Shown here: positions 6,701-59,344 of the stretch, piece by piece
Layout: the number at the start of each line of letters is the position of its first letter
Position numbering within the stretch: position 1 is the first letter of the stretch
Assembly: GCA_014843695.1 (NCBI GenBank)
Contig: CM026387.1
Coordinates: 79,928,341-79,992,340, forward strand
Origin: Archivesica marissinica
Lineage: Eukaryota; Mollusca; Bivalvia; Venerida; Vesicomyidae
Reading direction: 5' to 3'
Length of the DNA stretch: 64,000 nt
The notes under the pieces: model-generated
Database searches by the model: none
Told to the model about the DNA's origin: nothing
What the model saw: the letters and a program-made list of their open reading frames with translations, nothing else
Position numbers and translations under genes: made by a program

Positions 6701-9700
6701 GACAGATGTTGCCTGAGCATATTGTAATTGGATGTATCTGCTTTATTTGCAGTCTCTGTTTCCTAAGAGATTTCCATTCTCCGAGTTTGTACCAAATGTT
6801 TACAACCAAGTGAAAGAATATATCAACGCCTGCCTAAAATTCTCTGCTGATTTACATCTAAGGTATATTACATGTTTATAACCGGGTGAAAAAATATAAT
6901 ATGAATACCTAAAATTCTCTGCTGATTTACATCTAAGGTATATTACATGTTTATAACCGGATGAGTCCGCCTCCATGGTCGAGTGGTTACGGTCGCTGAC
7001 TTGTATACCACTGTAACCTATCATCACTGATGATCACCGGTTCGAGCCCCACTCAGGCCGTGTCTCATTGATATGAAAAAGTTGGCAGTTTCTTACGGAG
7101 GTTGGTGCACCGAAGTACTGGTTAACCACTGGAGCCTGCCCAGGAAAGGTGTTGTTAGGTAAACTGCCCGCCGGCGATATAGCCCGAAATGGTGCTGATG
7201 CAGGCGTAAAACCCGAAATATAAAAATATAACATAATTATAACCGGGTGAAAAAATATAATATGAATGCCTAAAATTCTCTGCTCTGGTATATCCTGAAC
7301 TCTAAACAAATAACGTGTGTGTGTATTTGAGGTTATAAAGCTCTGCCCACCTGAAGACACTGTAAGCAAGGGTACCAAAATGTCACTTGAGGATTGACCC
7401 CGACGTGTACCCCTCGCGTCTTATTAACGATATATTTTAGAGTTTCCCAGGGAATATATTTTTATAAAAACGGCTCTTGGCTGTGTATTTAATGTCTAAA
7501 TTTAGTATAATATTGAGCTCAAAATATAATGGATTCTCTGTTGGTTAATGAAACAGTGGAAGTCGTGATAGCACAGTTGTAGCGTGTAGGTGCGAAAGGC
7601 CCGGAGTTTGTGCCCCGCTGAGGCCGTTATGATTGTGCCCTTAGGCAATGCATTTAAATGTGCCTCTTCTCTCCCTCATGGCAATGGATTCCATCAGGAA
7701 TGAGGTATCGAGATTAATATAAGTTGTAAGAACTTGTTTTGCAATCGAGCTAAAATAAATTTGTATAAACTAACTAATGAAACCAGTCTAAATATACTTC
7801 CATTGATCAACAAACATACAATAGCAACAGCTGTGTTTTACGTTTATTTATCGTCGCTACCAGTTGCCCATATGAGCGACGCCTCCTGAAGAAATTAGTC
7901 ATTTTGGACGATAGTGCAATGATACAGACAGAGACCCATTCCAGAGTCTCCTCTGGTTCTTTTACGTGCACGGTGTAAAGCACCGACACGAGACCTCGGT
8001 TTAAAGTCCCATCTGAAAGACTGTTAATCGCGAATTTTCAATCCATGTTTTCATGTAGACATTTTGGCTCATTGCAGGCACGTTACGAGCTAGTAAATGT
8101 GATATTGTGCAGAAGATCTGTTTTTCAACAGCTCCCGTGTACATGGGGTCACATCTGAAAGACTGTTAATTTTATTAGGGTCAGACGGAGGATCGAACTT
8201 GCGATCCCTGGATTACCAGTCCAATGTGTTACCACTGGGCAACAGATCCGTCTGTCAGCTGTTAGCTGATTGATGTACATGATGTTTAACACCTTGTGTA
8301 TTTCCTCATATATAGATGGATGCAGTGCAACCTGTAAAGACCATGTGAAAGGAAAGATGTAGTCTATGTTTACATGTGGTCTCTATAAACCTATCAAATT
8401 ACACTAGAGGACAAAATTGTACTGAAATTCCAGGACATATTTCCAGAGTTTTCAGTTACAAATAAGAAAAACACATCAATGAATTGTCGTCTATTTATAG
8501 CCTTTATATTACCCAGCATGCAGAGAGTTAATGTGAGGTCAGAATAGTGGTTTATGGGGCAAGGTGTATTTATGCCATGGTGGTTTTCATCACAAGTCGG
8601 ACTGATCTACAAGGTGAAATGAAAGGGTGTAGTCATGACATGTTCATTTATTTTCTATCATAAGTTATCTTACGAGCAGTGGTGCAAGTTTTCTCATATT
8701 GAATGTATGGAGGAGTTGTCTTTCCTCTTTGTAAAAACATTTCTCCATCATATACCTTACACTCCAAGGGTCTCCGTGGTTGTGTGGTTACGGTCGTTGA
8801 CTTCAAATCATTGCTCCTCACAGCTATAGGTTCGAACTCATTCAAGTGAGGAAGCTATCCAGCTTGCTTGCAGTAGGTCGGTGGTTCTACATGGGTGTCC
8901 GTCTGTGTGTGAAATAATGATTGGTGAGGCAAGCCAGTGTCTTCCTCCAATAATAATTGGAGTCACCATATACCTAAGCTGTTGGGTGACTTAAAAACCC
9001 TTAAAAAAAGAAACAAATATCTTACACTTCTGCATGTTTTGAATGTCTATCTTAATCCATACACAGTTGAGTAATGTACTGTTTTCAGTCATACAGAAAT
9101 AGATGATATGATACGCAAGTCCACCAATCTGTTGCTGACTCGTACATTGAGTGGATGCCTGTCTTCTCTGATAAAGAGACCGAATCTTAGTCTTCTACAG
9201 GTAAGCATTAAGTAGAATATAACTGTCTGTTGCTGGAAACCTCCGATCCCTTCAATCTGATGTGGGTCGTCTCCGCGGCCGAGTAGTTACGGTCGTCGAC
9301 TTCAAATCACTTGTCCCTCACTGCTGCAGGTTTGAATCACACTCGGGGGGGGGGGGTATTGAATTTGTTCAAGTGAGGTGGCTTGCAGAAGGTCGGTGGT
9401 TTTACCTTGGTACATTCCCATGCTGTAAATGGTGCATACAGGTAATATGTTTAGGATTGGGACCATGGGTAATATGTGGGACCATGGGCTTAACCTTGCA
9501 TGATTTTTGTATGCTAGTAATATGCTGTGTGGGGTGCAAGTTTACCTCCATCTGTGTGAGGTGCAAGTTAACCTCCATCTGTGTGGGGTGCAAGTTAACC
9601 TCCATCTGTGTGGGTGCAAGTTAACCTCTGTCTGTGTGGGGTGCAAGTTTATCTCCATCTGTGTGGGGTGCAATTTAACCTCTGTCTGTGTGGGGTGCAA

Positions 9701-12700
9701 TTAACCTCCATCTGTGTGAGGTGCAAGTTAACCTCCATCTGTGTGGGGTGCAAGTTAACCTCCATCTGTGTGGGGTGCAAGTTAACCTCTGTCTGTGTGG
9801 GGTGCAAGTTAACCTCCATCTGTGTGGGGTGCAAGTTAACCTCCATCCGTGTGGGGTGCAAGTTAACCTCCATCTGTGTGGGGTGCAAGTTAGCCTCCAT
9901 CTGTGTGGAGTGCAAGTTAACCTCCATCTGTGTGGGGTGCAAGTTAACCTCTGTCTGTGTGGGGTGCAAGTTAACCTCTGTCTGTGTGGGGTGTAAGTTA
10001 ACCTCTGTCTGTGTTGGGTGCAAGTTAGCCTCCATCTGTGTGGGGTGCAAGTTAACCTCCATCTGTGTGGGATGCAAGTTAACCTCTGTGTGGGGTTCAA
10101 GTTAATCTCCATCTGTGTGAGGTGCAAGTTAACCTCCATCTGTGTGAGGTGCAAGTTAACCTCCATCTGTGTGGGGTGCAAGTTAACCTCTGTCTGTGTG
10201 GGGTGCAAGTTAACCTCCATCTGTGTGGGGTGCAAGTTAACCTCTGTCTGTGTGGGGTGTAAGTTAACCTCCATCTGTGTGGGGTGCAAGTTAACCTCTG
10301 TCTGTGTGGGGTGCAAGTTAACCTCCATCTGTGTGGGGTGCAAGTTAACCTCTGTATGTGTGGGGTGCAAGTTAACCTCTGTCTGTGTGGGGTGCAAGTT
10401 AACCTCCATCTGTGTGGGGTGCAAGTTAACCTCTGTCTGTGTGGGGTGCAAGTTAACCTCCATCTGTGTGGGGTGCAAGTTAACCTCTGTCTGTGTGGGA
10501 TGCAAGTTAACCTCTGTCTGGGTTTAAGCAGAGTCATAGTTAAAGGTCAACTTTACGAGATTTTCCAGCAGTACCTGCTGCTCTCAGTGTTAGTTCAAGG
10601 GTATACTTAATGGTGAGGGGTCAGATTGGGCGTATTGCGTGTGTATCATATCTCCAATGCGGCAGTGTTCATGAGCCTCAGAGTTCAGTATATTATTTAG
10701 ATGTAACCCATATATGAAACCAACATGTTAATCCTGATTTGCAATCTTATATCCGGCACAGTGAACGTCAGGGCCTCCGCTGTCTATCGCCACTGGCGCC
10801 AATTTTGGCAAAAGTGGCTCCAAATATTCGAAAGTGGCGAATATGTATGGCGCCATGATTTAAGTGACCCGAAAATTCGTTCTCGAGTCGCGCATACCAT
10901 GAGTCGCAGGGCACAGAAATGTCGATAACCAGCCCAATCAATACACGGTCAAGATTGTTTATTGCTCGTTAGTGGGATATGAATGACACGATGTGAGAAG
11001 ATAATTGGGCAAGTATGCTCGATCAATTAGTTAAGAAAACACCTGGCATCATGTATATTTGAAGTGTGCCGTGGATACAACAAATTAACAACAATTACGG
11101 CACGATTTTGATGATAAAGACACCGCCTGAATGTTTACAGCACTCGACAAATTCGACCGTTTTGATTTTGATCAGCTGTTAATTACGCTAGTTTGCTGTT
11201 TTGCAAACGTTTTTTGTGATGATCTCTTAATTACCGTGATCCCAACAAAGGTGAGGAAATTGATTGTTTATCGATAATTTCTGCTTGCCCAGCAGGAAAC
11301 TCGACGTGCCCGGTGAAAAATCACAACGTTTCTTGAAATTGACATTTTGTGTCTGTGATTCGAAAGCCGTGAACACGTTTTATTATTATATTACGGACTT
11401 GTGTCATTGGGTTTTATAGCACAATGAATTATATTTAAGCGTGCTCGACTATACAGATAATCTATGTTCTCGTAAGAGACAGAGTGCACTGAATCGGTAG
11501 TAAAGTCAATTTTCTGGAAAATTCGGAAATTCCACATCTATTTTTAGACACGCACCTGTTAAATGAAACTCGTAGTGGTTATTTGCCGACGGGCTTGCTC
11601 TCCACAATAATGATCAATGTAGTACTATGCTGTAATTAGTGTACCAGTCAATTGACTATTACCTTTGAAGTTACAATTTAATGCCTCAGGGAAAACATGT
11701 CACAGATTAATTTATGGCTTCGGATTATCGGACAATAGCGGCAATCAACAAGGATCAGTCAAGCAGGTCGCATATCTTATCTTACTTGTGGCCCCTGTTT
11801 CCACTGTTGAGTGTGAAAGGGGGTTCAGCAGGCAACAGCTCATCAAAACTTGCCTGAGAAACTCTCTGGCAATGCCCACATTTAACAACCTGATGAGAAT
11901 TTCTATTGATGGCCCTGGTCTTGAGGACTTTGACTTTGGGGGAGCATTTTTTAAGTGGAAGTCCATGAAATCCAGAAGAATCCTCTTTTAACACCTTTAT
12001 GAGAGATTTTTATTTGTATGAATGTAAAGAATAAAGAATGTATGAGAACACAATAAAGAATGTTGTAATACAAAGAAATTGAGCCTTTCGTTTGTTGTTG
12101 TAGTTTATTTTATATTGGCTCCAATTTTAGCTTATATGGCTCCAAAGTGGCGACAGAGGTGGCTCCACCTTACAAAAAGCCAGTGGAGGCCCTGAACGTG
12201 CATTGTAAGCTCCAACTAGTAAGCAATAAATCTTTCTGGCAGAATGATGATTATTAATTACTTACTGAAGGTAGTTTTGAGGTTGTTATAATCTCTTATG
12301 GATTACCTCGAGACATACATACATGTCATTGTTCTGACTGCCTCACGTCTGTGTTTCTGGTAGTGGTTTACGGATTACCTCGAGACATACATGTCATTGT
12401 TCTGACTGCCTCATGTCTGTGTTTCTGGTAGTGGTTTACGGATTACCTCGAGACATACATACATGTCATTGTTCTGACTGCCTCATGTCTGTGTTTCTGG
12501 TAGTGGTTTACGGATTACCTCGAGACATACATACATGTCATAGTTCTGACTGCCTCTTGTCTGTGTTTCTGGTAGTGGTTTACGGATTACCTCGAGACAT
12601 ATAACATGTCATAGTTCTGACTGCCTCTTGTCTGTGTTTCTGGTAGTGGTTTAGCAAACTGACAGTATAATACTGTAACTTATTTGAAAACAGCAGAGTA

Positions 12701-15700
12701 GATCCAATTCTGGGTTCATGCATGGGCGGGCACCCAGGTAGAACCGTCTTGGATTAGTCAGATAATATTCAATCGCCATTTTAAACAGTCGAGATATACC
12801 ACAAACATATTAACACCAGGAGATGGTCTCTGGGCCATTTCTATTGTCCTTTGGTTTGCTGTATACTAAATAGTTTTACAGAAAGTTACGTTTCTTAAAA
12901 CTCTTGGCAGAATGATGATTACTAATTACTTACGGAAGGTAGTTTTGAGATTGTTATAATCTCTTACGCTCTTATGAACCTCGAGACATACATACATACA
13001 TACATACGTGTTCATACGGGAAAAGCCTGACCGCACCAAAGGCACGGTCATGGTTGTACCGCCTACACACTCGACAACATTCCTAGTCGATCACCTCGTG
13101 CTTGATTGTATTTGGAGCAAACTATTTAACCATATTATATCTATATTCATATCATCTTATTTGATACATTTTATTACAGATCGTTATGCAATGAATTGCT
13201 GTATAATCATCTGGGATAAAAATGCATTAAATGAAAATATTTCAATGATATGTATGCTTATTAGTTTGCTCCAAATATTATAAAACACCAGGTGACCGAT
13301 TATGAATTTTGTTGAATGTACCGGTATATAACATGTACGAGACAAGTGTACACAAAATATACATGAAAAAGAACAGAAAACTTACACATCAAAATATCCC
13401 AAACAGAAAACTATCCAATATATTTTGCCAGTACATTTACTCTTGTATGATCACTTCTCACAATTGATGTCAAGTACACAATGTCACAGTTTTGAACTTG
13501 TATCTAGCCGCTGCATTTTGAAATGTTGTCATGATTTGTGACGTCTATTACGATGTCAATTTTTGTTGCCTAAGCACTACATTCTAGCGCCATTTAGCGC
13601 GCCGTTGCATCGTTTTCCGTCATTAAGACACTTCAGCCTTTGTGTGCTTAAGTGAATGATCGAAGGCTAGTGTGTGTTATTCCATTGATATTATTTAATT
13701 ACGAACGAGAGACGAGAGGTAATTAAAGAAGAAAAATATATGTTTATTTTATAATGAACATTAGTTTCATAAACTTTGTAATTTAAGATAATTTATGACT
13801 TAATAAAATGATATTTAGCTATGATGGGGTTAGAACCTGTGACCGTTCGCTTACAGTGTAAACACGCTACAGAGCTACTGCGCCATCCAGGCAGTTTACG
13901 CATAGTATCCCTCAAGGATGTTATTAAACAAAGTGGATTAAACCAGTCACAACAATCTTACAAACAAAACTAATTGCATAATACTGTAAATTTTGATATT
14001 TGATTTGTAAGTAAGTTTTATGTTCTTTTTCAAGTCCGCCTCCGTGGTCAAGTGGTTAAGGTCGCTGACTTGTATACCACTGTAACCTATCATCACTGAT
14101 GGTCACGGGTTCAAGTCCCGCTCAGGCCGTGTCTCATTTATATGAAAAAGTTGGCAGTTTCTTACGGAGGTTGGTGCACCCAAGTACTGGTTAACCGCTG
14201 GAGCCTGCCCAGGAAAGGTGTTGTTAAGTAAACTGCCCGCCGGCGATATAGCCCGAAATGGTGCTGATGCAGGCGTAAAACCCGAAATATAACATAACAT
14301 AATGTTCTTTTTCATGTACATGTTATCTATAGGTGGTACAACCCCCCCTATATGAAGTATGTTTCTAACGACATCCATGGTAGAATGGGTATAAGTGTGG
14401 AATACTCTCTGAAGCCGTTGCTATTTTCATGACCATAATGTCCATTCTGCTGATAATAACTTGATTAAACCTTGAGAAAGGTGGGTTCGTCAGTACAACT
14501 GTGTTACTGAGTATTTTACGTAATGTCGGAGTATTACAACTGTTTATAACTCATCAATGACTTATATCAACCCATGCAACCTGTTACAACAAATTGTCTC
14601 TCTGTGAAAGATTGCTACAACGAAACAATGAAATCAACTTGCCTTCACTCGTTACAATATTGTTTTACAGTAAAGTAAACTTGTTGCATCAGGTTGCATG
14701 TGTAAATGGAATGAAGGAGTAATTGACCTGGCTACCCGTGTGGACAGCCTGCCATCCTGCCCTAGACTGCAAATGGTGAGGATTGAGTGTGTGGTGTTTT
14801 ACATTTATATATCGCCACTACCGGTTGCCCATATGAGCAACGCCTCCTGATGAGATTAGTCATTTTAGATTTTTGGAGGATAGTGCAATGATACAGACAG
14901 AGACCCATTCCAGAGTCTCCTCTGGTTCTTTAACGTGCACAGTGTAAAGCACTGACACGAGACCTCGGTTTAAGGTCCCAACTGAAAGTTAATTTTATTA
15001 TGGTCAGACGGGGGGATCGAACATGCGATCCATGGGTTGATATGGTGAGGATAGATGAGATATACAAGAACTACATTAGGTTAATGACCCTCCTGTCTAT
15101 TTGTCTATTTCAGTTAATACAGATTTCAATTAACATGAATTACCTGGAGAAATCATGTACACATTTAGAAGACTACATCTCCAGCATCACCGGGTAAGTT
15201 GAGTATATCTCCAGCAGGGGTTGTGCAAATCCTATGACCAATTTGGCAATTTGTGGAACGGACAAGTGGAATTGTGCATCTTAGTTGTCCGGGGACAGTT
15301 GTTTTTTTGTTTTGGTATAAAATGTTGGACTATGAAAGAAACATTATTTCATTGTTAAACATGATAATTATATGAATAAATTATGACAAATTAATTAGCG
15401 GAAGCTTGAAATGTAAACGTTCCTCCATGATGGTTACTGTATGCGTAAAACATTTACCAGACCCAGCTATCTCAGCGGACAGTGTTCAATCCGAGACGAA
15501 ATGTAAACGTTCCTCCATGATGGTTACTGTATGCGTAAAACATTTACCAGACCCAGCTGTCTCAGCCGACAGTGTTCAATCCAAGACGAAATGTAGACGT
15601 TCCCCCATGATGGTTACTGTATATGTAAAACATTTACCAAACCCAGCTATCTCAGCGGACAGTGTTCAATCCAAGACGAAATCAATTCGTCAGTTTTATT

Positions 15701-18700
15701 TTTATGGATGTTTACAAATTACTCAGATTCAGTGCAGCCAAATAATCGTAATAACCTGCAACTTCAAGTAACAACAATCTCAATAGCAAAAGAATATCAG
15801 AGTCTGATGGACAAGACAAAGACTATGACTATAAAAAAAACAACAACAATGAAAACGGACACTCAGGCGATCCTAATCAAGTTACATGTGGCATATGTAC
15901 ACAGTACCAGCAATTAGCAGGCAAAACATCCAGTTTATATGTCAGCAAGAAAGTTGAAAGGCGAGACACATGTATAGCACATGAAATATCTGCCAAGCAT
16001 GTTACAATGTGTATGTTAGAACTTGAATCAAAGGGCAAGTGGGCTTTGCAAGTTTGGTCTTAATTTTGGTGACAAGACAAGTCAATTTTTGCTGTCTACT
16101 TGTCCTTGGACATGTGAACGATTTTGAGATTTCCACACCCCTGTCTCCAGTATCACCGGGTAAGTTGAGTATAACTAGGGAATGTCTATATCCCGGACAA
16201 CCTTATCCCGGGAAATTGAGAAAGTTTTCAGTTAGATCCCGGGAAATTGGGACAATTGTTAGATCGTGAAAATTATTTGTCGAATCTTGGTTTGGGCATT
16301 ATTTTGGGTGAGAATTCGGGAGTTCCAAACAAAACCAGACTAAACTTAAGGTTTTATGGTTGATTGACAGGAATTTGGCAATGTCTCATTTTCTGGTAAG
16401 TTCTTTAAGTTTAGTCTTGTTTTGTTTGGAACTCCCGTATTCTCACCCAAAATGATGCCCAAACCAAGATTCGACAAATAATTTTCAACTTCTCATTCGT
16501 GATCTTGAATTCAATTCATCATCGATTCATCAAACTTAGTGATGAAAAGACATTATGGACCTCCTGAACTCAGACCAAAAATGGCAGCCGAGCTCGGCGA
16601 GCTGCCGAACAGAGAATAAAAGAATATGTAATAACTAATAAGTTGATAACTCGACATTTTGAACGCATTGATTGTAATTCTCACTGTCATGAAATGAAAA
16701 AAAAAACATTGGGTGATCATCAATGTCAAACTTTAACACTGAGTCCAGTCTTTGAACTCTTCTCAACAACATAAATGCAACTGTAGGAGTGTCCTAACTG
16801 TCCTTACACTTTGAGATTGACAATCTAGTGAATCTACTCATTTGAGTCAAACTGAGTGGTCACTGGTGTGGTTCAACACCAACAGTGCCGTGGTTGTTGA
16901 AATAGTTTTTCAGGAAAACTAGAACACATAATGATTTGTCTCCGAGCCGGGACTTAATACGTGTTGCAAAATTACCGGCAGCAGAGAATGCTCTTTCACT
17001 CTCAACGGATGATGGCTTAATTGTCATAAGTGCCCGGTAAAGTTGTTCGAGATTGTGGCCTATTTGGGGGTTCTCTTTTTTTGAGCTTCGTATAGTTTGA
17101 AATCATTTGTCATTGTCTTCAGATCCTTTATGTCCTTAGTATCACTATCATCTTTAACTGCACAGTCGATCGCAAGCTGGAATTTTTCAGCCAGGGTCGT
17201 TTGACTCGTTTCTTTTTCTTTGTCAGCAGACTGTACAGAGGTTCGGTTGCTAGGTTCGACAATGATGGCATCATCTACAGGTGTGCTCTCCTGACCAATC
17301 GAGTCAGCAGACTCAGCCTCAGACTGACCATATAGCTGAGTGTAAATACCCATTGCATATTTCTGAATGACGGATTTGGAACTTCTGTTCCCAAAAACAT
17401 TCGGTTTACTGACATCTGTCTTGGAATGTAAATATTGAATAAGGTCCATGGTAGTTTTATTTCGCCGTGTCGAGATTCGTTCGAGTATTGAATCTCTTAT
17501 TGTCTTACACAATGGGTTGTTTTGGCTACTCTGTCTCTGCTCCAAAGTTTGTAGGAGAAATGTAATAACAGCATCGCCAGACAACAATGAAGCTTCATTT
17601 CTGCATAGTGCATCACTTGCCAGTTTGACAGGCTCTAGTGCTGATGTGAGTTGTTTGATGCACATGAGTTCATTTTCAGTAACCTTTGAGTTCCCTTTTA
17701 GGTCTATGAATGTTTTTTCCAAACATGGCCTAATTTTACAGTATCTCTCCAACATGGCACATAAAGTGTTCCATCGAGTTTTATTATCGTCAAGGATGAG
17801 CTTCAGCTCTTTCCCAATCTCAGACTTCACATGTTTTTGAAGAACTTCATTATCTTTCGGGCTTCGTCTGAAGCGTTTAACATCTTCACGAACGTGCTTG
17901 ATGGCCGAACCTATATCACATTCCAATGTTGTTTCCATTGTCGTACAGAAGTTTATATCTCCGCCGCTGACAGCTTCATCTGCTTCGATGTCTTCAATGA
18001 ATTCAACATCTGCAACATCGTCATCTGTTTCAGAATCAGAACTGTTGGGTAATTCCACATCTTCTGTAGTGTCAGTGCCACTGGTTTGTGTGGTTGACAT
18101 TCCTGAATTTCAGATTCAATTTCCTAGAGGCTAGAACTATCATTTCCCGGGATCCCGATAACTTTTATCCCGGGAAATGAGAAAAATAAATTGCCGGGAT
18201 TTCCCGGGAAGAAACCCTAAGTATAACTACAGCAAAATCAATGGGTAATTTGAGTATATCTGCAGCATGACCGGGTAAGTTGAGTATATCTGCAGCATGA
18301 CCGGGTAAGTTGAGTATATCTGCAGCATGACTGGGTAAGTTGAGTATAACTACAGCAAAATCAATGGGTAATTTGAGTATATCTGCAGCATGACCGGGTA
18401 AGTTGAGTATATCTGCAGCATGACCGGGTAAGTTGAGTATATCTGCAGCATGACCGGGTAATTTGAGTATATCTGCAGCATGACCGGGTAAGTTGAGTAT
18501 ATCTGCAGCATGACCGGGTAAGTTGAGTATATCTGCAGCATGACTGGGTAAGTTGAGTATAACTACAGCAAAATCAATGGGTAATTTGAGTATATCTGCA
18601 GCATGACCGGGTAAGTTGAGTATATCTGCAGCATGACTAGGTAATTTGAGTATATCTGCAGCATGACCAGGTAAGTTGAGTATATCTGCAGCATGACCGT

Positions 18701-21700
18701 GTAAGTTGAGTATATCTGTAGCATGACCGGGTAAGTTGAGTATATCTGCAGCATGACCGGGTAAGTTGAGTATATCTGCAGCATGACCGGGTAATTTAAG
18801 TATATCTGCTTAATAGAGGTCAAATGTATAGCAAAACAACGTATTGGGACTCTGGAAACTGACTGCTTAATGCAGGTTGGCTGCTTAATAGAGGTGACCA
18901 CTAACACAGGTTTGACTGTACTTATTATTGATTCTATGTATTTTTCAGTGCTGAAAAAGACAGTGTTCATGCCGCCAGGCTACATGGGACTTCAATGTTT
19001 AAGGTGAGGTAGTTAATGAAAGATCAGTAACACATTATGCACCACTAGATGTGGAAGTCGTGATAGCCCAGTTGTAGCACGTTCGCTTCATGTGCGAAAG
19101 GCTCAAACTCCAAAGGCCCCGCTGGAGCCGTTGCGATTGTGCCCATAGGCAAGGCATTTATATTCCACATAGCCTCTTTTCTCTCCCTCGTGGCGATGGT
19201 TTCCATCAGGAATGAGGTCTCGAGAGTGATACAAATTGTAAGAACTTGTTTCGCAATCGAGCTATTATAAATTAAACTAGATTCTCCTTGCATGGTGATT
19301 ACTAAACAATGAAATAACCGCCTTTGTTTGGATTTCGAACCCAGTTGGTAGCAACTAACTGGGACATGTATCTAGACAGGCATCGGCTGAACTAAGAGGG
19401 TCAATTGCTACGTGTGTTTTATGCTTTATTCCCACACTTGAGATACAATTAGATACAAACATAATAAGAAAAAGTGATATTTTGTTACAAAATTTGAGGG
19501 ACCTCTGGGCGAGTGATTATGGTCTTTAACCCTTTCAACACCACAGACCTAAATAAGCTTACAAAAAGTGTAGATCCAGATGAGCCAGCTCGTGAACAGC
19601 CGTCTCATCAGGATCTGCACTTTTTGCCAGTGACATGACTATTTTTAGACATAATTACCCATTTTGATAAATGAACTTGTCCAAATGTGATATTCTGATT
19701 CATTTATTGGTTTATGAATATCATGGACCAGTCCATGTGAGTTACTTGGTGTTGAATGGGTTAACATGAAATCACTCGCCACTGCAGGTTCGTATCCCAC
19801 CGGGGGCGTCAAATTCACTCATGTCAAGAAGCTATCCAGCTGGCTTGTGGTAGGTCAGTGGTTCTACCCAGGTACCCGTCTGTGTCGGTAATACTGCTCG
19901 GAGGGGCACCTGGGGTCTTCCGCCCTCAATAGTAGTTGTAGAGTCGCCATATGACCTAAGCTGTTAGTGCGACTCCCCAAAAATCAAACAAGCAAACAAA
20001 ATTAGAAATCTGCTTTGTTTGTAAAACTATTTTCACCAGCTAATATACATAACTTTAAATTTGTGCTGCAGTTCGGGCAGACCTGTATTAATATGGTGAA
20101 TACGTTCAGCATATCCTTACTACAGAATACGTTCAGCATATCCTTACTGCAGAATACGTTCAGCATATCCTTACTACAGAATACGTTCAGCATATCCTTA
20201 CTACAGAATACGTTCAGCATATCCTTACTGCAGAATACGTTCAGCATATCCTTACTACAGAATACGTTCAGCATATCCCTACTACAGAATACGTTCAGCA
20301 TATCCTTACTACAGAATACGTTCAGCATATCCCTACTACAGAATACGTTCAGCATATCCTTACTACAGAATACGTTCAGCATATCCCTACTACAGAATAC
20401 GTTCAGCATATCCCTACTACAGAATACGTTCAGCATATCCTTACTACAGAATGAAAGACTATTACATTTATCTATATTCTGATTTACTAGGATGCAAGAA
20501 GTGAAGCTGAAGATTACATATACAGAAAGCTCAACAATAAGATCGATGAATTCCTGGATCTAGGTAAGATACATACAGTAAACAATAGAACTGATGAATT
20601 GCTGGATCTATGTTAGATACATACAGTAAACAATAGGACTGATGAATTCCTGGATCTATGTTAGATACATACAGTAAACAATAGGACTGATGAATTCCTG
20701 TATCTATGTAAGATACATACAGTAAACAATAGGACTGATGAATTCCTGGATCTATGTAAGATACATACAGTAAACAATAGGACTGATGAATTCCTGGATC
20801 TATGTAAGATACATACAGTAAACAATAGGACTGGTGAATTCCTGGATCTATGTAAGATACATACAGTAAACAATAGGACTGATGAATTCCTGGATCTATG
20901 TAAGATACATACAGTAAACAATAGGACTGATGAATTCCTGGATCCAGGTTAGATACATACAGTAAACAATAGGACTGATGAATTCCTGGATCTATGTAAG
21001 ATACATACAGTAAACAATAGGACTGATGAATTCCTGGATCTATGTAAGATACATACAGTAAACAATAGGACTGATGAATTCCTGGATCTATGTAAGATAC
21101 ATACAGTAAACAATAGGACTGGTGAATTCCTGGATCTATGTAAGATACATACAGTAAACAATAGGACTGATGAATTCCTGGATCTATGTAAGATACATAC
21201 AGTAAACAATAGGACTGATGAATTCCTGGATCCAGGTTAGATACATACAGTAAACAATAGGACTGATGAATTCCTGGATCTATGTAAGATACATACAGTA
21301 AACAATAGGACTGATGAATTCCTGGATCTATGTAAGATACATACAGTAAACAATAAGATCGATGAATTCCTGGATCCAGGTAAGATACATACAGTAAACA
21401 ATAGGACTGATGAATTCCTGGATCTATGTAAGATACATACAGTAAACAATAGGACTGATGAATTCCTGGATCTATGTAAGATACATACAGTAAACAATAG
21501 GACTGATGAATTCCTGGATCTATGTTAGATACATACAGTAAACAATAGGACTGATGAATTCCTGGATCTTGGTAAGATACATACAGTAGACAATAGGACT
21601 GTTGAATTCCTGGATATATGTAAGAAACATACAGTAAACAATAGGACTGATGAATTCCTGGATCTTGATAAGATACATACAGTAGACAATAGGACTAATG

Positions 21701-24700
21701 AATTCCTGGATCTATGTAAGATACATACAGTAAACAATAATATTGATGAATTCATTGATGTAGGTTAGATACATACAGTAAACAATAAGGTTGATGAATT
21801 CATTGATGTAGGTTAGATACACACAGTAAACAATAATATTGATGAATTCATTGATGTAGGTTAGATACACACAGTAAACAATAAGGTTGATGAATTCATT
21901 GATGTAGGTTAGATACACACAGTAAACAATAAGGTTGATGAATTCATTGATGTAGGTTAGATACACACGGTAAACAATAAGATTGATGAATTCATTGATG
22001 TAGGTTAGATACACACAGTAAACAATAAGGTTGATGAATTCATTGATGTAGGTTAGATACACACAGTAAACAATAAGGTTGATGAATTCATTGATGTAGG
22101 TTAGATACACACAGTAAACAATAATATTGATGAATTCATTGATGTAGGTTAGATACACACAGTAAACAATAAGATTGATGAATTCATTGATGTAGGTTAG
22201 ATACACACAGTAAACAATAAGGTTGATGAATTCATTGATGTAGGTTAGATACACACAGTAAACAATAAGGTTGATGAATTCATTGATGTTGGTTAGATAC
22301 ACACAGTAAACAATAAGATTGATGAATTCATTGATGTAGGTTAGATAGACACAGTAAACAATAAGATTGATGAATTCATTGATGTAGGTTAGATAGACAC
22401 AGTAAACAATAAGATTGATGAATTCATTGATGTAGGTTAGATACACACAGTAAACAATAAGATTGATGAATTCATTGATGTAGGTTAGATACACACAGTA
22501 AACAATAAAATTGATGAATTCATTGATGTAGGTTAGATACACACAGTAAACAATAAGGTTGATGAATTCATTGATGTAGGTTAGATAGACACAGTAAACA
22601 ATAAGATTGATGAATTCATTGATGTAGGTTAGATACACACAGTAAACAATAAGATTGATGAATTCATTGATGTAGGTTAGATAGACACAGTAAACAATAA
22701 GATTGATGAATTCATTGATGTAGGTTAGATACACACAGTAAACAATAAGATTGATGAATTCATTGATGTAGGTTAGATACACACAGTAAACAATAAGATT
22801 GATGAATTCATTGATGTAGGTTAGATACACACAGTAAACAATAAGATTGATGAATTCATTGATGTAGGTTAGATAGACACAGTAAACAATAAGATTGATG
22901 AATTCATTGATGTAGGTTAGATACACACAGTAAACAATAAGATTGATGAATTCATTGATGTTGGTTAGATACACACAGTAAACAATAAGATTGATGAATT
23001 CATTGATGTAGGTTAGATAGACACAGTAAACAATAAGATTGATGAATTCATTGATGTAGGTTAGATACACACAGTAAACAATAAGATTGATGAATTCATT
23101 GATGTTGGTTAGATACACACAGTAAACAATAAGGTTGATGAATTCATTGATGTAGGTTAGATACACACAGTAAACAATAAGATTGATGAATTCATTGATG
23201 TAGGTTAGATACACACAGTAAACAATACGATTGATGAATTCATTGATGTTGGTTAGATACACACAGTAAACAATAAGATTGATGAATTCATTGATGTAGG
23301 TTAGATACACACAGTAAACAATAAGATTGATGAATTCATTGATGTAGGTTAGATACACACAGTAAACATGTGGCATTCATATGATGCTGGGGTGTTCACT
23401 CGGTCACAAACTCATGTATTTCTGTGTTTTACAGCGGCATATATTTGGAATCTGTCCGAACAAAGCGACAACCCGAGCGGTTATTTGATGGACTTGATTG
23501 CGTTCCTGCAAAGTATCTTCATGTCTTTCACCAATTTACCGGTCAGTATAGCACGCAGTGTGGATGATCTGTTGTGTATCGATGTGTTAGAATCACAATG
23601 TCCCAAGTTTCTTTTAGTTTACATGTATACAAATTTATTTTAGCTTGATTGCGAAACAAGTTCTTACAACTTGGATTAATCACTCTCTAGACCTCGTTCC
23701 TGATGGAATCCATCGCCATGAGGGAGAGAGAAGAGGCAATGTGGAATTTAAATGCCTCGCACAATCGTAGCGGCTACAGCTGGGCGCAAACTTCAGGCCT
23801 TTAGCACCTGAAGCAAATGTGCTACCACGACTTCTTTTGCTTTCATTATGTAAATACGATTCTGTTCAAGTATCAAAGTTGAAACTCGGAAGTTTATTGT
23901 TCCAACATTTTGACACAAATTAGTCTATGTTACTGGTGTAATAGAATTGTCCGCAGGGTCTGGTAGAGATTCACACAGTGGAATAAACTAGTTATAAATC
24001 TATGTGCATTCAGTCTGTTGTATGGGTCAGGGGTGTACCCCCCAAGTCATGGAGATAATCCATAAATTATCAAGTTATAGAAAGACATGTTCAAATGCTT
24101 CCATCTTTATTGCAGTTCACATTTGTAATAAATACTGAACATATTGAGATTTATACGAACTTCGTTGCCTCGAACTCGGTTGGCTCGAACACCACCGTTG
24201 GCTCGAACATGTCATCTGGTCCTTGCTCTAATCTCTATATAATGCATATTGTTCTACCTTCGTTGACTCGAACACGGATGACTGGAGTTCTCGAACCAGA
24301 TCACTGGTCCCATGAAATCAATTAGTACTTAAATTAACACCTTTGGGTCGAACAGAATTGAGTGTTCAGGTCCTCGTGTCACACAAAAGTTTTCACAGCT
24401 TTTGTTAATGGCAATGACATCCCATTTGATCAGTACACTCGCGTAATTTACATGTCGTGAGATTGGCAATTACTATTCTATTGTGACTGGGTTTCAATCA
24501 CGGCGGCTTTTTTATCCAAAATTTAAATTGGTATTAAACGTAATTATGTATAGAACAAACATATTACACACTTATTGAGTTAAAGATGCCAAGCTACGAC
24601 ATTTCAATATAAACAACCGATCTTGTCGTCTCTTCATCAAATTCTTTATTAATCATGTCAAAGCCAAAATTTACTGTTCTTAACGCTGAGCAACTTAGCA

Positions 24701-27700: not shown

Positions 27701-28263
27701 AAACAACTTCCTCAATCTGCCTTCAGATATGCGCTTAATATTTAACATGTTTTGCCTTTTACAATGTATTTCATCTTTGTTACCGTATATTTCCGACCAT
27801 TAGTCGGTCTCGGTCATAAATTTGACTTGAAAATGTTGATTTTAAGCTGGATCCTTTCATAAGTCGAGGGTACTTTATGGCATTCGTTACGACAATCGTT
27901 TATTCTCTCATATTTTAATGAAACTGAAATTTATTTTAGATATCTGGTTGACTTTTTTTCCAGTACAAATCACACAAAAAAATTCAACTTTTCAAAATTG
28001 TTTGTTGCTCGTTTCTCGGCCATATGTCGACATATTACTTTCATCACTTGTCTATATGAAAAATAGCTTGGCTTATGGTCGGGAATATACATGTAGGTAC
28101 ATCATAAAATGTTATGACATAGTAGATTCTGGATGTGACACCCGGGGTCTTCCTCCGCCAATAGTAACTGGATAGTCACCATATGACCTAAGCTGTTGGT
28201 GTGACTTTAAACCCCAAAAACAAACAAACAAAATTGATTCTGGCCGATAATGCGCAGCTCCAG

Positions 28264-28313
<50 letters not shown>

Positions 28314-31300: not shown

Positions 31301-34300
31301 CTACCTGTTGCCCATATGAGCGGCGCCTCCTGAAGAGATTAGTCATTTTAGATTTTTGGAGGATAGTGCAATGATAGAGACAGACACCCATTCCAGAGTC
31401 TCCTCTAGTTCTTTTACGTGCACAGTGTAAAGCACCGACACGAGACCTTCGTTTAAAGTCCCATCTGAAAGACTGTTAATTTTATTAGGGTCAGACGGTG
31501 GATCGAACCTGTGATCCCTGGGTTACCAGTCCAGCGTGTTACCACTGGACTACAGATCCGTCAGCCTTGCAATAAACTGACTGTGGTGTTAAATGCAGTA
31601 TTGAGTGGTCAATCTGTGGTAATGACTGCTATGCATATCACTACAAATATGGCAGATTTGTAGTCTGTGGATATTGTGGGTGGGGTTATAATATGAAACA
31701 CTAGAGAATATAATTTATATCAGCCTAGATTGGTTTGTATAAGATGTATGTATTTTCCCTATTAAATGCAACATAGCGATACCTATTTAACCCATTTACT
31801 TTTTGTTTTCTTTAATGTAGCATGTGCATTCACATTTTCAAATCCCCCCCTCCCAACATCCTCACACCCAAATCCCCCCCCCTCCCAACATCCTCACACT
31901 CAAATCCCCACCCAACCATAAGCCATCATATCTAAATACACAAATAATGACCATGACCTTTGCTTGCAAATTAGTATTCCCACAATGCACAGCAAGGAGT
32001 ACTGAGCACAATCAGCTCCACCAATACATTGATTGTGCTATTGATCATTAGATAAGATAACAGTTAAATGGCATGTAAATATACCAGTAACTGTTGGAAT
32101 GGGTAACAGGTGGAGAAGTGTGTGCAAATTGCACTGCGATTGATGGGTACTCAGTGTGCGAGTGGTGTAGGTCGCTTACTTAAGTCACTAAACTCCTGGG
32201 ATTGATGGGTACTCAGTGGGCGAGTGGTGTAGGTCGCTTACTTAAGTCACTAAACTCCTGGGATTGATGGGTACTCAGTGGGCGAGTGGTGTAGGTCGCT
32301 TACTTAAGTCACTAAACTCCTGGGATTGATGGGTACTCAGTGGGCGAGTGGTGTAGGTCGCTTACTTAAGTCACTAAACTCCTGGGATTGATGGGTACTC
32401 AGTGGGCGAGTGGTGTAGGTCGCTTACTTAAGTCACTAAACTCCTGGGATTGATGGGTACTCAGTGGGCGAGTGGTGTAGGTCGCTTACTTAAGTCACTA
32501 AACTCCTGGGATTGATGGGTACTCAGTGGGCGAGTGGTGTAGGTCGCTTACTTAAGTCACTAAACTCCTGGGATTGATGGGTACTCAGTGGGCGAGTGGT
32601 GTAGGTCGCTTACTTAAGTCACTAAACTCCTGGGATTGATGGGTACTCAGTGGGCGAGTGGTGTAGGTCGCTTACTTAAGTCACTAAACTCCTGGGATTG
32701 ATGGGTACTCAGTGGGCGAGTTGTGTAGGTCGCTTACTTAAGTCACTAAACTCCTGGGATTGATGGGTACTCAGTGTGCGAGTGGTGTAGGTCGCTTACT
32801 TAAGTCACTAAACTCCTGGGATTGATGGGTACTCAGTGTGCGAGTGGTGTAGGTCGCTTACTTAAGTCACTAAACTCCTGGGATTGATGGGTACTCAGTG
32901 TGCGAGTGGTGTAGGTCGCTTACTTAAGTCACTAAACTCCTGGGATTGATGGGTACTCAGTGTGCGAGTGGTGTAGGTCGCTTACTTAAGTCACTAAACT
33001 CCTGGGATTGATGGGTACTCAGTGTGTGAGTGGTGTAGGTCGCTTACTTAAGTCACTAAACTCCTGGGATTGATGGGTACTCAGTGTGCGAGTGGTGTAG
33101 GTCGCTTACTTAAGTCACTAAACTCCTGGGATTGATGGGTACTCAGTGTGCGAGTGGTGTAGGTCGCTTACTTAAGTCACTAAACTCCTGGGATTGATGG
33201 GTACTCAGTGTGCGAGTGGTGTAGGTCGCTTACTTAAGTCACTAAACTCCTGGGATCAATGGGTACTCAGTGTGCGAGTGGTGTAGATCGCTTACTTAAG
33301 TCACTAAACTCCTGGGATTGATGGGTACTCAGTGTGCGAGTGGTGTAGGTCGCTTATTTAAGTCACTAAACTCCTGGGATTGATGGGTACTCAGTGTGCG
33401 AGTGGTGTAGGTCGCTTACTTAAGTCACTAAACTCCTGGGATTGATGGGTACTCAGTGTGCGAGTGGTGTAGATCGCTTACTTAAGTCACTAAACTCCTG
33501 GGATTGATGGGTACTCAGTGTGCGAGTGGTGTAGGTCGCTTATTTAAGTCACTAAACTCCTGGGATTGATGGGTACTCAGTGTGCGAGTGGTGTAGGTCG
33601 CTTACTTAAGTCACTAAACTCATGGGATTGATGGGTACTCAGTGTGCGAGTGGTGTAGGTCGCTTACTTAAGTCACTAAACTCCTGGGATTGATGGGTAC
33701 TCAGTGTGCGAGTGGTGTAGGTCGCTTACTTAAGTCACTAAACTCCTGGGATTGATGGGTACTCGGTGTGCGAGTGGTGTAGGTCGCTTACTTAAGTCAC
33801 TAAACTCCTGGGATTGATGGGTACTCAGTGTGCGAGTGGTGTAGGTCGCTTACTTAAGTCACTAAACTCCTGGGATTGATGGGTACTCGGTGTGCGAGTG
33901 GTGTAGGTCGCTTACTTAAGTCACTAAACTCCTGGGATTGATGGGTACTCGGTGTGCGAGTGGTGTAGGTCGCTTACTTAAGTCACTAAACTCCTGGGAT
34001 TGATGGGTACTCAGTGGGCGAGTGGTGTAGGTCGCTTACTTAAGTCACTAAACTCCTGGGATTGATGGGTACTCAGTGGGCGAGTGGTGTAGGTCGCTTA
34101 CTTAAGTCACTAAACTCCTGGGATTGATGGGTACTCAGTGGGCGAGTGGTGTAGGTCGCTTACTTGAGTCACTAAACTCCTGGGATTGATGGGTACTCAG
34201 TGGGCGAGTGGTGTAGGTCGCTTACTTAAGTCACTAAACTCCTGGGATTGATGGGTACTCAGTGGGCGAGTGGTGTAGGTCGCTTACTTAAGTCACATTG

Positions 34301-37300
34301 ATGGGTACTCAGTGGGCGAGTGGTGTTGGTCGCTTACTTAAGTCACTAAACTCCTGGGATTGATGGGTACTCAGTGGGCGAGTGGTGTAGGTCGCTTACT
34401 TAAGTCACTAAACTCCTGGGATTGATGGGTACTCAGTGGGCGAGTGGTGTAGGTCGCTTACTTAAGTCACTAAACTCCTGGGATTGATGGGTACTCAGTG
34501 GGCGAGTGGTGTAGGTCGCTTACTTAAGTCACTAAACTCCTGGGATTGATGGGTACTCAGTGGGCGAGTGGTGTAGGTCGCTTACTTAAGTCACTAAACT
34601 CCTGGGATTGATGGGTACTCAGTGGGCGAGTGGTGTAGGTCGCTTACTTAAGTCACATTGATGGGTACTCAGTGGGCGAGTGGTGTAGGTCGCTTACTTA
34701 AATCACTAAACTCCTGGGATTGATGGGTACTCAGTGGGCGAGTGGTGTAGGTCGCTTACTTAAGTCACTAAACTCCTGGGATTGATGGGTACTCAGTGGG
34801 CGAGTGGTGTAGGTCGCTTACTTAAGTCACTAAACTCTCACTGCTGCTGGTTCCAATCCCACTGTGTCATGAGGAAGAAAAAACCATTTGCGAACCAACT
34901 TTTAACAACTTATATTAATCACTCTCGTTGGTGCGGATGAAAGCATATATGTTGTCATTCATGTGGGAGGAAACCGGAGCACCCGGAGAAAACCCACCTG
35001 TCTGATCTGGCGACCATCATACCATATGAGGAAGGTATATAGCTGACTTGCAGAAGATCAGTGGTTCTACCAGGGTGCCTGTCTGCTTGAAATACTGCAC
35101 CTTCACCCAGGTTCTTCCTTTACCAATAATAATTGGAAAGTCGCCGTATGACCTAAGCTTTTGGTGCAACATTAAACTGCAACAACAAACGAATCAACTG
35201 GGATACAAACACTGCACCATTTGCTTAAGCACTTATACACTACAAGCCATCTCATCAGGATCTGCACTTTTTGCCAGTAATACTATTTTTAGACAAAATT
35301 ACCTATTTTGATAAATGAACTGGTCCAAAGGTAATTTTCTTATTAATTTATTGGTTTAAAGATATCCTGGACCAGTCCATGCCAGTTAGTTGGTGTGTAA
35401 TGGGTTAAGCTATCAGTTATCAAGTACTTTTCCTAAATATTATCTTAAACAATTATATTTTGGCAATTAGTGAAGATTTATCATGTCCCTTTTTTAGCAT
35501 TTCAGATGAATTTGCCCCCAAACCTCCTGAAATGAAATGAAAAGCTCTGCTTAGATGTGTTCCACAGCTCTTGTACAACAAAGCATAATATTAGTTAATG
35601 CACGATACAGAATTTATAAGAGGATGTCTAGCTGTCATGCATTCTGACTTCCAATGTAAGAGGATGTCTAGCTGTTATGCATTCTGACTTCCAATGTAAG
35701 AGGATGTCTAGCTGTTATGCATTCTGACTTCCAATGTAAGCAGATGTCTAGCTGGCATGCATTCTGACTTCCATTGTAAGAGGATGTCTAGCTGTCATGC
35801 ATTCTGTCTTCCAATGTAAGCGGATGTCTAGCTGTCACGCATTCTGACTTCCAATGTAAGAGGATGTCTAGCTGTCACGCATTCTGACTTCCATTGTAAG
35901 AGGATGTCTAGCTGTCATGCATTCTGACTTCCATTGTAAGAGGATGTCTAGCTGGCATGCATTCTGACTTCCATTGTAAGAGGATGTCTAGCTGTCATGC
36001 ATTCTGACTTCCAATGTAAGAGGATGTCTAGCTGTCATGCATTCTGACTTCCATTGTAAGAGGATGTCTAGCTGTCATGCATTCTGACTTCCATTGTAAG
36101 AGGATGTCTAGCTGTCATGCATTCTGACTTCCAATGTAAGAGGATGTCTAGCTGTCATGCATTCTGACTTCCAATGTAAGAGGATGTCTAGCTGGCATGC
36201 ATTCTGACTTCCATTGTAAGAGGATGTCTAGCTGTCATGCATTCTGACTTCCATTGTAAGCAGATGTCTAGCTGTCATGCATTCTGTCTTCCATTGTAAG
36301 AGGATGTCTAGCTGTCATGCATTCTGTCTTCCATTGTAAGAGGATGTCTAGCTGTCATGCATTCTGTCTTCCATTGTAAGAGGATGTCTAGCTGTCATGC
36401 ATTCTGACTTCCAATGTAAGAGGATGTCTAGCTGTCATGCATTCTGTCTTCCATTGTAAGAGGATGTCTAGCTGTCATGCATTCTGACTTCCATTGTAAG
36501 AGGATGTCTAGCTGTCATGCATTCTGACTTCCAATGTAAGCAGATGTCTAGCTGGCATGCATTCTGACTTCCATTGTAAGAGGATGTCTAGCTGTCATGC
36601 ATTCTGTCTTCCAATGTAAGCGGATGTCTAGCTGTCACGCATTCTGACTTCCAATGTAAGAGGATGTCTAGCTGTCACGCATTCTGACTTCCAATGTAAG
36701 AGGATGTCTAGCTGTCATGCATTCTGACTTCCAATGTAAGAGGATGTCTAGCTGTCATGCATTCTGACTTCCAATGTAAGAGGATGTCTAGCTGTCATGC
36801 ATTCTGACTTCCAATGTAAGCAGATGTCTAGCTGGCATGCATTCTGACTTCCATTGTAAGAGGCTGTCATGCATTCTGACTTCCATTGTAAGCAGATGTC
36901 TAGCTGTCATGCATTCTGTCTTCCATTGTAAGAGGATGTCTAGCTGTCATGCATTCTGTCTTCCATTGTAAGAGGATGTCTAGCTGTCATGCATTCTGTC
37001 TTCCATTGTAAGAGGATGTCTAGCTGTCATGCATTCTGACTTCCAATGTAAGAGGATGTCTAGCTGTCATGCATTCTGTCTTCCATTGTAAGAGGATGTC
37101 TAGCTGTCATGCATTCTGACTTCCATTGTAAGAGGATGTCTAGCTGTCATGCATTCTGACTTCCAATGTAAGCAGATGTCTAGCTGGCATGCATTCTGAC
37201 TTCCATTGTAAGAGGATGTCTAGCTGTCATGCATTCTGTCTTCCAATGTAAGCGGATGTCTAGCTGTCACGCATTCTGACTTCCAATGTAAGAGGATGTC

Positions 37301-40300: not shown

Positions 40301-43300
40301 TAGCTGTCATGCATTCTGACTTCCAATGTAAGAGGATGTCTAGCTGTCATGCATTCTGACTTCCATTGTAAGAGGATGTCTAGCTGTCATGCATTCTGAC
40401 TTCCAATGTAAGCGGATGTCTAGCTGTCACGTATTCTGACTTCCATTGTAAGAGGATGTCTAGCTGTCATGCATTCTGACTTCCAATGTAAGAGGATGTC
40501 TTGCTGTAACGCATTCCAAATATTTCCATGCATTCATTTACCACCAAATAAAAACGATATTTTGTTAATATATAATCTGTGTTTGCACCTATTGGCAAGG
40601 TATGTTCAATTGTGTTCTTGTAATTTCAGGAAAAGGTGGCTAAAACAGCGTGTATGTCGGCATGTAAACACATTGCTCAAAGTTTAATGGATTTTCTGCT
40701 CGATAACAATGTGCTCCAGATTACAAGCCATGCTCTACACCAGTTTAACCTCGATGTCGCCCAGTGTGAAGGTATGTACATTATATAACCTCGATGTCGC
40801 CCAGTGTGAAGGTATGTACATTATATAACCTTGATGTCTCCCAGTGTGAAGGTATGTACATTATATAACCTTGATGTCGCCCAGTGTGAAGGTATGTACA
40901 TTATATAACCTCGATGTCGCCCAGTGTGAAGGTATGTACATTATATAACCTTGATGTCTCCCAGTGTGAAGGTATGTACATTATATAACCTTGATGTCGC
41001 CCAGTGTGAAGGTATGTACATTATATAACCTCGATGTCGCCCAGTGTGAAGGTATGTACATTATATAACCTCGATGTCGCCCAGTGTGAAGGTATGTACA
41101 TTATATAACCTCGATGTCGCCCATTGTGAAGGTATGTACATTATATAACCTCGATGTCGCCCAGTGTGAAGGTATGTACATTATATAACCTTGATGTCGC
41201 CCAGTGTGAAGGTATGTACATTATATAACCTCGATGTCGCCCAGTGTGAAGGTATGTACATTATATAACCTCGATGTCGCCCAGTGTGAAGGTATGTACA
41301 TTATATAACCTTGATGTCTCCCAGTGTGAAGGTATGTACATTATATAACCTTGATGTCGCCCAGTGTGAAGGTATGTACATTATATAACCTCGATGTCGC
41401 CCAGTGTGAAGGTATGTACATTATATAACCTCGATGTCGCCCAGTGTGAAGGTATGTACATTATATAACCTCGATGTCGCCCAGTGTGAAGGTATGTACA
41501 TTATATAACCTTGATGTCGCCCAGTGTGAAGGTATGTACATTATATAACCTCGATGTCACCCAGTGTGAAAGTGTGTACATTATTCATTTTATTTCAACA
41601 AATCTTAAAAGACAGTGATTTACCAAATAGTCAGCACTATAATATAGTTTCTTCTGAAATATAGGCATAGAAACACAATTATTCACAAATGTTTGCATGT
41701 TACAGAGTTTGCAGCCTCTGAGCCCATCCCAGGATTCAATGATGGTACGCTGCAGATGGCATTTGTTGATTTGAGACAGGTATATATAGCAATGTCAAAT
41801 TGTATAAATATTTTTAGTTCTTTTGTGCCAATGCAGTCAAATATCGGACAGAATTTAAGCAAACGACCATCTTAGTAACCTGATTACAACCTTTCTATTG
41901 CAGGGCCGTAGCCAGATTTGAAAAAAGTTTGGTACGAAATGAAATCTGTATTTAGAATTGTAATGCGACTGGGAACTGTTGGGAGGGCTAGGGGGTTCCG
42001 GGGGCATGCCCTTCGGAAAATTTTGAAACCCAGATGCTCTGAAACGCCATTGCCTGCATTCTCAGCAAAGACTGAGCACATGATATGGCTCAGTTTTCCC
42101 ACGTCATTGTCCTACTAATAATAGATTTTAGAACAGCTAGACTGTCCAATCGGCCTTTTTTGAGAGGGGTTTCGAGGTATTCCCCCAAGAATTTTGTGTC
42201 AACAAGAACGATTTAGATGGAACTTCGGAGCATCTAAAATGGCAAATCTAAATGGTAGACTTATGCATCAGTGTGTGTTTATTGCTAGTATGTCTACTGA
42301 ATCCGTGGTCGAGTGGTTAAGGTCGCTGACTTGTATACCACTGTAACCTATCATCACTGATGGTCACGGGTTCGAGCCCCGCCCAGACCGTGTTTCATTT
42401 ATATGAAAAAGTTGGCAGTTTCTTACGGAGGTTGGTGCACCCAAGTACTGGTTAACCGCTGGAGCCTGCCCAGGAAAGGTGTTGTTTGGTAAACTGCCTG
42501 CCGGCGATATAGCCCAAAATGGTGCTGATGCAGGCGTAAAACCCGAAATATAATAATAATAATAATGTCTACTGAAGAGTAGTCATGGTCGCCATGTCCA
42601 GGGACCTGTGAAATAATAAGACAGGAAATCACACTAATCCCTGTATTATCGCGTGGACCATATGCGTAACTTAGCAAATCTCATTCTTGTGTTTAAGTTG
42701 CTATATACTTAATAAATATTCCTGAAATAAAACATGTATACTATTCTTGCGACAATTTGTTGAAAAATGAGCTAGAAGTTACAGACATTAAAATTATATT
42801 TTCAACACCATATTAAGTATGTATAAATTATATCAAAAATCTCAAAACCTATTTGTATGACATTTATGTTCAATTTAAGACTATTCTTGAGAATACATGT
42901 AGAACATGAGTGACTAGTTTGAAATGTCTTAAAGAGTCAGTGTCTCATTTATATGAATAAGTTGGCAGTTTCTTACAGAGTTTGGTGCACCTAAGTACTG
43001 GTTAACCGTTGGAGCCTGCCCAGGAAAGGAGTTGTTAGATAAACTGCCCGCCGGCGATATAGCCCAAAATGGTGCTGATGCAGGTGTAAAACACGAAATA
43101 TAACATAACTTAAAGAGTCAGTTTGCAATCCTGCTCTTTGGTCCTTGCCATGAGTTAACTTAACCATGCTGGGATTTACCAGATTTGGCGCAGGAAGTTT
43201 AGCCCACCCACAAGAGCTCTAGATAAGGATTTTGTAATTGGGTACTGTTACACTATACTTTTCAGATGAATTGTGTATGGCCAATATTCAATTGGATATT

Positions 43301-59280: not shown

Positions 59281-59344
59281 GTGTGTGTGCAACAAGATGT
59301 AAAACATACATATATGTGAGGGGGGAATAGGGGTATTGGGGAGT

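Follow-up and report, generated by a model that had tools for sequence, protein, structure and literature searches.

Why should the tandem repeats of a single gene begin, time after time, at the 5' splice site? We asked this of a 64,000-nucleotide stretch of the bivalve Archivesica marissinica (GenBank assembly GCA_014843695.1, contig CM026387.1, positions 79,928,341 to 79,992,340 of the forward strand; hereafter the window), whose plus strand carries the C-terminal part of the gene EXOC6/Sec15 in 12 exons, a to l, with all introns of the GT...AG type. Tandem arrays open the introns that follow exons c, e, g and i, in units of about 75, 30, 48 and 40 bp, and each unit consists of the end of the exon, the splice donor and the first bases of the intron. 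The probable explanation, in which we place moderate confidence, is that these are four independent minisatellites of the kind called mirages, each seeded by a duplication that straddled a donor and was tolerated by selection.

The exons, the four arrays and the 60-bp array of intron j discussed below all lie on the plus strand. Exon c (6753 to 6862) ends in the first copy of array c (6799 to 7290; edges approximate and read by eye; 40-mer identity 1.00 at an offset of 75), where the exon copy is followed by a second copy with an intact donor and then, beyond an insert resembling a short interspersed nuclear element (SINE), by a truncated third (about 7237 to 7290). Exon e (15114 to 15193) shares its last 16 bases, with one mismatch, with the unit of array e (15178 to 18809), which survives in three pieces (15178 to 15214, 16144 to 16175 and 18220 to 18809) and holds 21 donors of the GTAA type, the real one included. 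The last 31 or so bases of exon g (20491 to 20563) fall within the unit of array g (20533 to 23368), with about 59 copies (the real one and 58 more) in two main subfamilies, and the last 26 of exon i (40630 to 40771) within that of array i (40746 to 41584), with 21 copies (the real one and 20 more). These are ungapped counts, which give 30 exon bases for array c; its unit reaches about 64 by eye if indels are allowed. An earlier description of this locus, here called the sequence-only reading, had reported satellites built from exon end plus 5' splice site in four of eleven introns, with these unit lengths and about 3, 20, 59 and 21 copies. Those figures hold, array c comprising two full copies and a truncated third. 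Its layout was right in that the arrays span the junctions and needed correction in that array c is interrupted by the SINE-like insert and array e is split into its three pieces by two DNA transposons.

The arrays were then compared with every splice junction of the gene. In a scan for local copies of each junction (40-mer centered on the junction, ungapped, at least 75% identical and no more than 1.5 kb away), copies were found at four of the ten donors b to k, namely c, e, g and i, and at none of the 11 acceptors b to l. When 18 array units were aligned to 11 donors and 12 acceptors, with P values from single-base shuffles, the cognate pairs scored 154 (c), 152 (i), 106 (g) and 72 (e), and no other pair exceeded 37. 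Each unit thus resembles the end of its own exon much more closely than it does any other junction, in agreement with the earlier claim of four separate events at the same kind of site, and the sequence comparison supports independent seeding of the four arrays. Among the 23 junctions, no other was matched by an array of this kind, barring one tentative, decayed case at the acceptor of exon k (44687 to 44799). There, the unit of a 60-bp array in intron j (44411 to 44633) aligns, with gaps and without an AG, across the acceptor (about 44648 to 44704) and into the exon, with a score of 37 (P 0.008 by shuffling, without correction for the 414 comparisons made) that is the highest of 8434 window-strand positions outside the array itself (next highest, 34). 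This may tentatively be read as an old acceptor-side array whose AG was lost; alternatively, the match could be a frayed edge of this 60-bp array. Further ancient mirages among the other arrays were rejected, as the comparison returned only the four known pairs and this weak one.

How unexpected are four donor-spanning arrays? Uniform seeding of 18 arrays (918 unit bases) over the introns of today predicts 0.22 such arrays (nominal P for four or more, 9e-5), or 0.35 with arrays collapsed (P 3.5e-4); with transposon-like repeats removed, 17 arrays on 19,041 bases predict 0.48 (P 0.0011), and assumed intron totals of 21,921 and 12,000 bp give P values of 0.0008 and 0.008. Counted in the 18-array set are a 32-bp array (2.3 copies, at 31838) and a 90-bp array inside the first array e transposon, the latter omitted from the 17-array set; the units aligned to junctions lacked the 32-bp array and included one at 1 to 690. 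Tandem Repeats Finder (TRF) rows with 17-, 10- and 3-bp units were not counted, and array c, missed by TRF, was added by hand. Under a null in which an array may start anywhere in its own intron that leaves the last 0 to 60 bp free, 1.16 to 1.83 donor-spanning arrays are expected (P 0.014 to 0.044), or 1.37 (P 0.015) when transposons other than those in array e are kept. The "notable excess" of the sequence-only reading is therefore nominally real under uniform seeding and much weaker within introns. It shrinks because, once stripped of arrays and transposon-like repeats, introns e, g and i are shorter than any of the other eight.

Under our rough mask, the stripped lengths are 66 bp for intron g, 121 bp for i and 201 bp for e, compared with 1077 bp for c and 528 to 6433 bp for the other seven; restoring one unit brings g and i to 83 and 135 bp. 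As a group, introns c, e, g and i are shorter than the remaining seven (Mann-Whitney one-sided P 0.021). With the last 60 bp barred, the chance of a duplication touching the donor is about 0.87 for g (for a 48-bp duplication), 0.39 for i, 0.17 for e and 0.07 for c, so that e and c are less expected than g and i; the stripping and the within-intron null placed transposon borders some 10 bp away from the positions read in the sequence. At the other end of the intron, seven of the 13 arrays measured stop within 140 bp of the next exon, at 38, 48, 53, 66, 113, 121 and 139 bp, and none of the 13 ends enters the last 38 bp (the remaining array ends are farther inside introns e, h and j). Donors and acceptors also differ in count, with four of 11 donors and none of 12 acceptors clearly spanned (one-sided Fisher P 0.037, by hand). 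A duplicated donor leaves the first copy in place, while a duplicated acceptor offers an earlier AG, so this is the asymmetry that splicing would impose.

As sequence, the "about a hundred decoy donors" of the earlier description are correct: we counted 98 decoys with GT, 1 in array c, 20 in e, 57 (of 58 copies) in g and 20 in i. In array i, 19 of the 20 are identical to the real donor 9-mer. Scored against the donor consensus MAG/GTRAGT, the 17 array e decoys examined comprised 10 equal to the real donor, one better and six weaker, and the 58 of array g comprised 55 weaker (one without GT), two equal and one better in match count. Selection to weaken the decoys was rejected for g and i, the two arrays to which the test was applied, in which donor-core columns change no more than shifted positions do (g, 0.130 versus 0.119 outside the core, ranking 22nd among 48 shifts; i, 0.011 versus 0.085, 33rd among 40). 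If used, 94 of the 95 GT decoys tested would yield an early stop (1/1 in c, 17/17 in e, where 17 of the 20 were taken, 56/57 in g and 20/20 in i), and a single array g decoy would keep the frame open. Three of the units (75, 30 and 48 bp) are multiples of three, and a frame read on through the real donor ends at a stop in intron bases 17 to 19 (c), 2 to 4 (e), 51 to 53 (g) or 15 to 17 (i).

Two of the arrays have since been entered by mobile elements. The SINE-like insert in array c (6961 to 7236, plus strand) is so called, by eye, because its head resembles a tRNA and because the window contains further copies of it, and it is flanked by a 10-bp target-site duplication, TTATAACCGG, at 6951 to 6960 and 7237 to 7246. 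In array e, a first DNA transposon-like insert (15215 to 16143, no strand assigned) has inverted termini CAGGGGTTGTGC/CACACCCCTG and a 7-bp flanking duplication, TCTCCAG; a second transposon (16176 to 18219, minus strand) has an 8-bp flanking duplication, AGTATAAC, and an 80-amino-acid frame with a hAT dimerisation domain (PF05699, E 3.3e-08), while its 349-amino-acid frame matched no Pfam family. Arrays c and e therefore predate these insertions. Array i is uniform (97% matches) and so is probably young.

Four other explanations were weighed. Donors might be duplication hot spots, through transcription-linked breakage or slippage at junctions (U1 binding, polymerase pausing, R-loops). The departure from uniform seeding, the imbalance between donors and acceptors and the GC skew of the consensus units e and g (0.29 each; c, 0.00; i, 0.06) would all suit this idea. 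R-loops would, however, call for a G-rich, positively skewed sense strand where the arrays were seeded, and over 60 bp the skew is -0.30, -0.20, 0.05 and -0.15 at donors c, e, g and i, within or below the range of the seven other donors (-0.23 to 0.39); the strongest skew in the window lies at 54 to 60 kb. A cause in R-loops or skew was thus rejected, and the transcription- or R-loop-linked breakage that the sequence-only reading had offered finds no support in skew. By eye, breakpoint neighbors at e, g and i share only about one to four bases, a usual amount for slippage or end joining that is not diagnostic. As much of the excess vanishes once intron length is considered, and as 14 of the 18 arrays counted in the gene are not at donors, we regard hot spots as unlikely. 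Chance combined with selection of a striking window, such that some gene among thousands in a repeat-rich genome would carry four such arrays, is about as unlikely, perhaps slightly more so. It is favored by the local repeats that cover 42% of intronic positions from exon b to exon l, by the choice of this window as striking, by the modest within-intron P values and by the uniform-seeding P of 0.008 at the assumed 12 kb of intron; against it stand the nominal values of 9e-5 to 1.1e-3 obtained with measured lengths.

Decoys might instead be retained for use, either as extra U1 sites that shield long introns from early polyadenylation or to adjust EXOC6 dose by way of poison splicing and nonsense-mediated decay. 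The near-universal early stops and the real 9-mer kept in 19 of 20 array i decoys fit this proposal. On the other side, 55 of 58 array g decoys are poorer matches to the consensus than the real donor is, array i is so uniform that identical donors need no selection, and amphioxus mirages are reported to leave splicing undisturbed (PMC3087553); we consider such use improbable. An assembly artefact, with wrong copy numbers or junctions, is the least probable of the four and in our view very improbable. One amphioxus globin mirage reportedly looked aberrantly assembled in a genome draft, and the copy numbers given here are themselves based on the assembly. Yet inserts with flanking duplications split arrays c and e, which argues against assembly error at those two places, and array g contains two diverged subfamilies.

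We return, then, to donor-straddling duplication tolerated by selection, a possibility that the sequence-only reading had also raised and that fits the data. A small tandem duplication would happen to straddle a donor, and the exon-proximal copy would stay where it was, so that the mRNA can remain unchanged and the new copy becomes intron. Slippage or unequal exchange would later multiply the intronic copies. Selection would meanwhile remove duplications inside exons and most of those over the branch point, the pyrimidine tract and the acceptor, which in a very short intron would leave the donor edge as nearly the sole place for an array to start. Several points weigh against this explanation. 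The host intron of array c is not short; the excess persists within introns, at four arrays where 1.16 to 1.83 are expected; the exon-k case, if real, would tentatively be an acceptor-side array; and the weakness of 55 array g decoys may point to selection against them. That the first donor is the one used is itself inferred from the open frame and from homologous proteins, the stripped lengths rest on a mask of dispersed repeats drawn from this window only, and the P values are uncorrected for the picking of a striking window.

Repeats of this anatomy have been described before, and the EXOC6 arrays are a further case of them. Boundary-spanning tandem repeats were named mirages in the amphioxus Adh3 gene and also occur in its globin (BflGb6/BflGb9), troponin C and PGBD5 genes; they are minisatellite-like, with units of 10 to 160 bp of which many but not all carry AG/GT signals, in otherwise normal genes (PMC3087553; PMC3902484). 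The globin report adds that the data suggest regular splicing is not disturbed and records length instability (PMC3087553); the EXOC6 sequence represents one haplotype. The EXOC6 arrays are likewise tandem duplications across exon-intron boundaries, at four donors, and likewise keep the splice signal in many but not all copies. They differ in lying in a mollusc gene, in occupying four donors of one gene, in reaching about 59 copies and in the later mobile-element insertions into two of them; the amphioxus BflGb6 mirage is acceptor-side, whereas arrays c, e, g and i are donor-side. A minisatellite of the human gene 6-16 (IFI6) reportedly contains several splice donor sites. In human segmental-duplication genes, internal tandem repeats at exon-intron boundaries arise by minisatellite expansion with units averaging 30 bp (PMC2812944); those repeats can alter splicing and form new introns, while the EXOC6 introns keep their own acceptors outside the unit. 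Models of intron gain by tandem duplication, exemplified by a potato RdRp case (PMC4974935) and by the Rogers model as cited in PMC3087553, share with these arrays a tandem duplication that carries a splice signal. Gain by duplicated AGGT was rejected here because acceptors are absent from the units: none of the 11 acceptors b to l is locally repeated, and units c, e, g and i score at most 26 against any acceptor. The introns thus look lengthened rather than new. Among the listed papers that bring minisatellites together with bivalves or molluscs, mostly open access, no title or abstract opening mentioned a boundary-spanning mollusc array, and we make no claim to the first in molluscs.

The gene model itself was built by reading and tblastn, with exon letters chosen to fit the c, e, g and i of the earlier description. 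Besides the four exons that begin arrays and exon k, it comprises exons a (739 to 788; also placed by frame; donor not duplicated), b (4680 to 4833), d (9089 to 9200), f (18949 to 19003), h (23435 to 23541), j (41706 to 41779) and l (47051 to 47195, with the stop codon). Joined, exons a to l form a single open frame, 404 codons long before its stop, that matches Pfam Sec15_C (E 6.6e-109), and exons b to l match the solved Sec15 domain structure 2a2f (E 6.7e-78). Among the 120 protein matches listed, the best three show 71 to 72% identity to the query; every protein from a named source that reaches at least 69% is molluscan (Bulinus, Gigantopelta, Acanthosepion and Biomphalaria), some over part of the query only, and Mytilus edulis (57%) and vertebrates (about 57%) fall lower.

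The window holds other arrays as well. A 76-bp array (4893 to 5555) begins about 60 bp past donor b, with an internal inverted repeat, CTGATTGGTT...AACCAATCAG, in its unit. By eye, a 62-bp array (32134 to 34837) and a 55-bp array (45269 to 46403) look derived from pieces of tRNA-like SINEs, which are common in the window, and a SINE-like element (44121 to 44420), flanked on both sides by ATTCTTAATGGA, seems to interrupt the 60-bp array of intron j. A very long G-rich array (54921 to 59288) has a period of about 23 bp and GC skew of up to 0.9, and an AT-rich array (62541 to 64000), with a complex period of 45, 81 and 126 bp, runs off the end of the window.

A broader proposal, which we put forward only tentatively and think somewhat doubtful, is that duplication at the donor edge is a general route from very short to long introns: as almost no other part of such an intron would tolerate duplication, mirages should be concentrated in the shortest ancestral introns of minisatellite-rich animal genomes. 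On this view, arrays would have turned introns g (about 83 bp) and i (about 135 bp) into introns of 2.9 and 0.9 kb, and would have offered transposons a place to insert in intron e, once about 200 bp, where they now account for most of the 3.8 kb. EXOC6 adds a mollusc to the amphioxus and human examples given above of minisatellites that cross exon-intron boundaries, and ties such arrays to short introns, which yields a simple and testable rule on where an intron can lengthen and where decoy splice sites build up. The EXOC6 arrays would also provide a natural test of how splicing chooses the first among dozens of near-identical donors.

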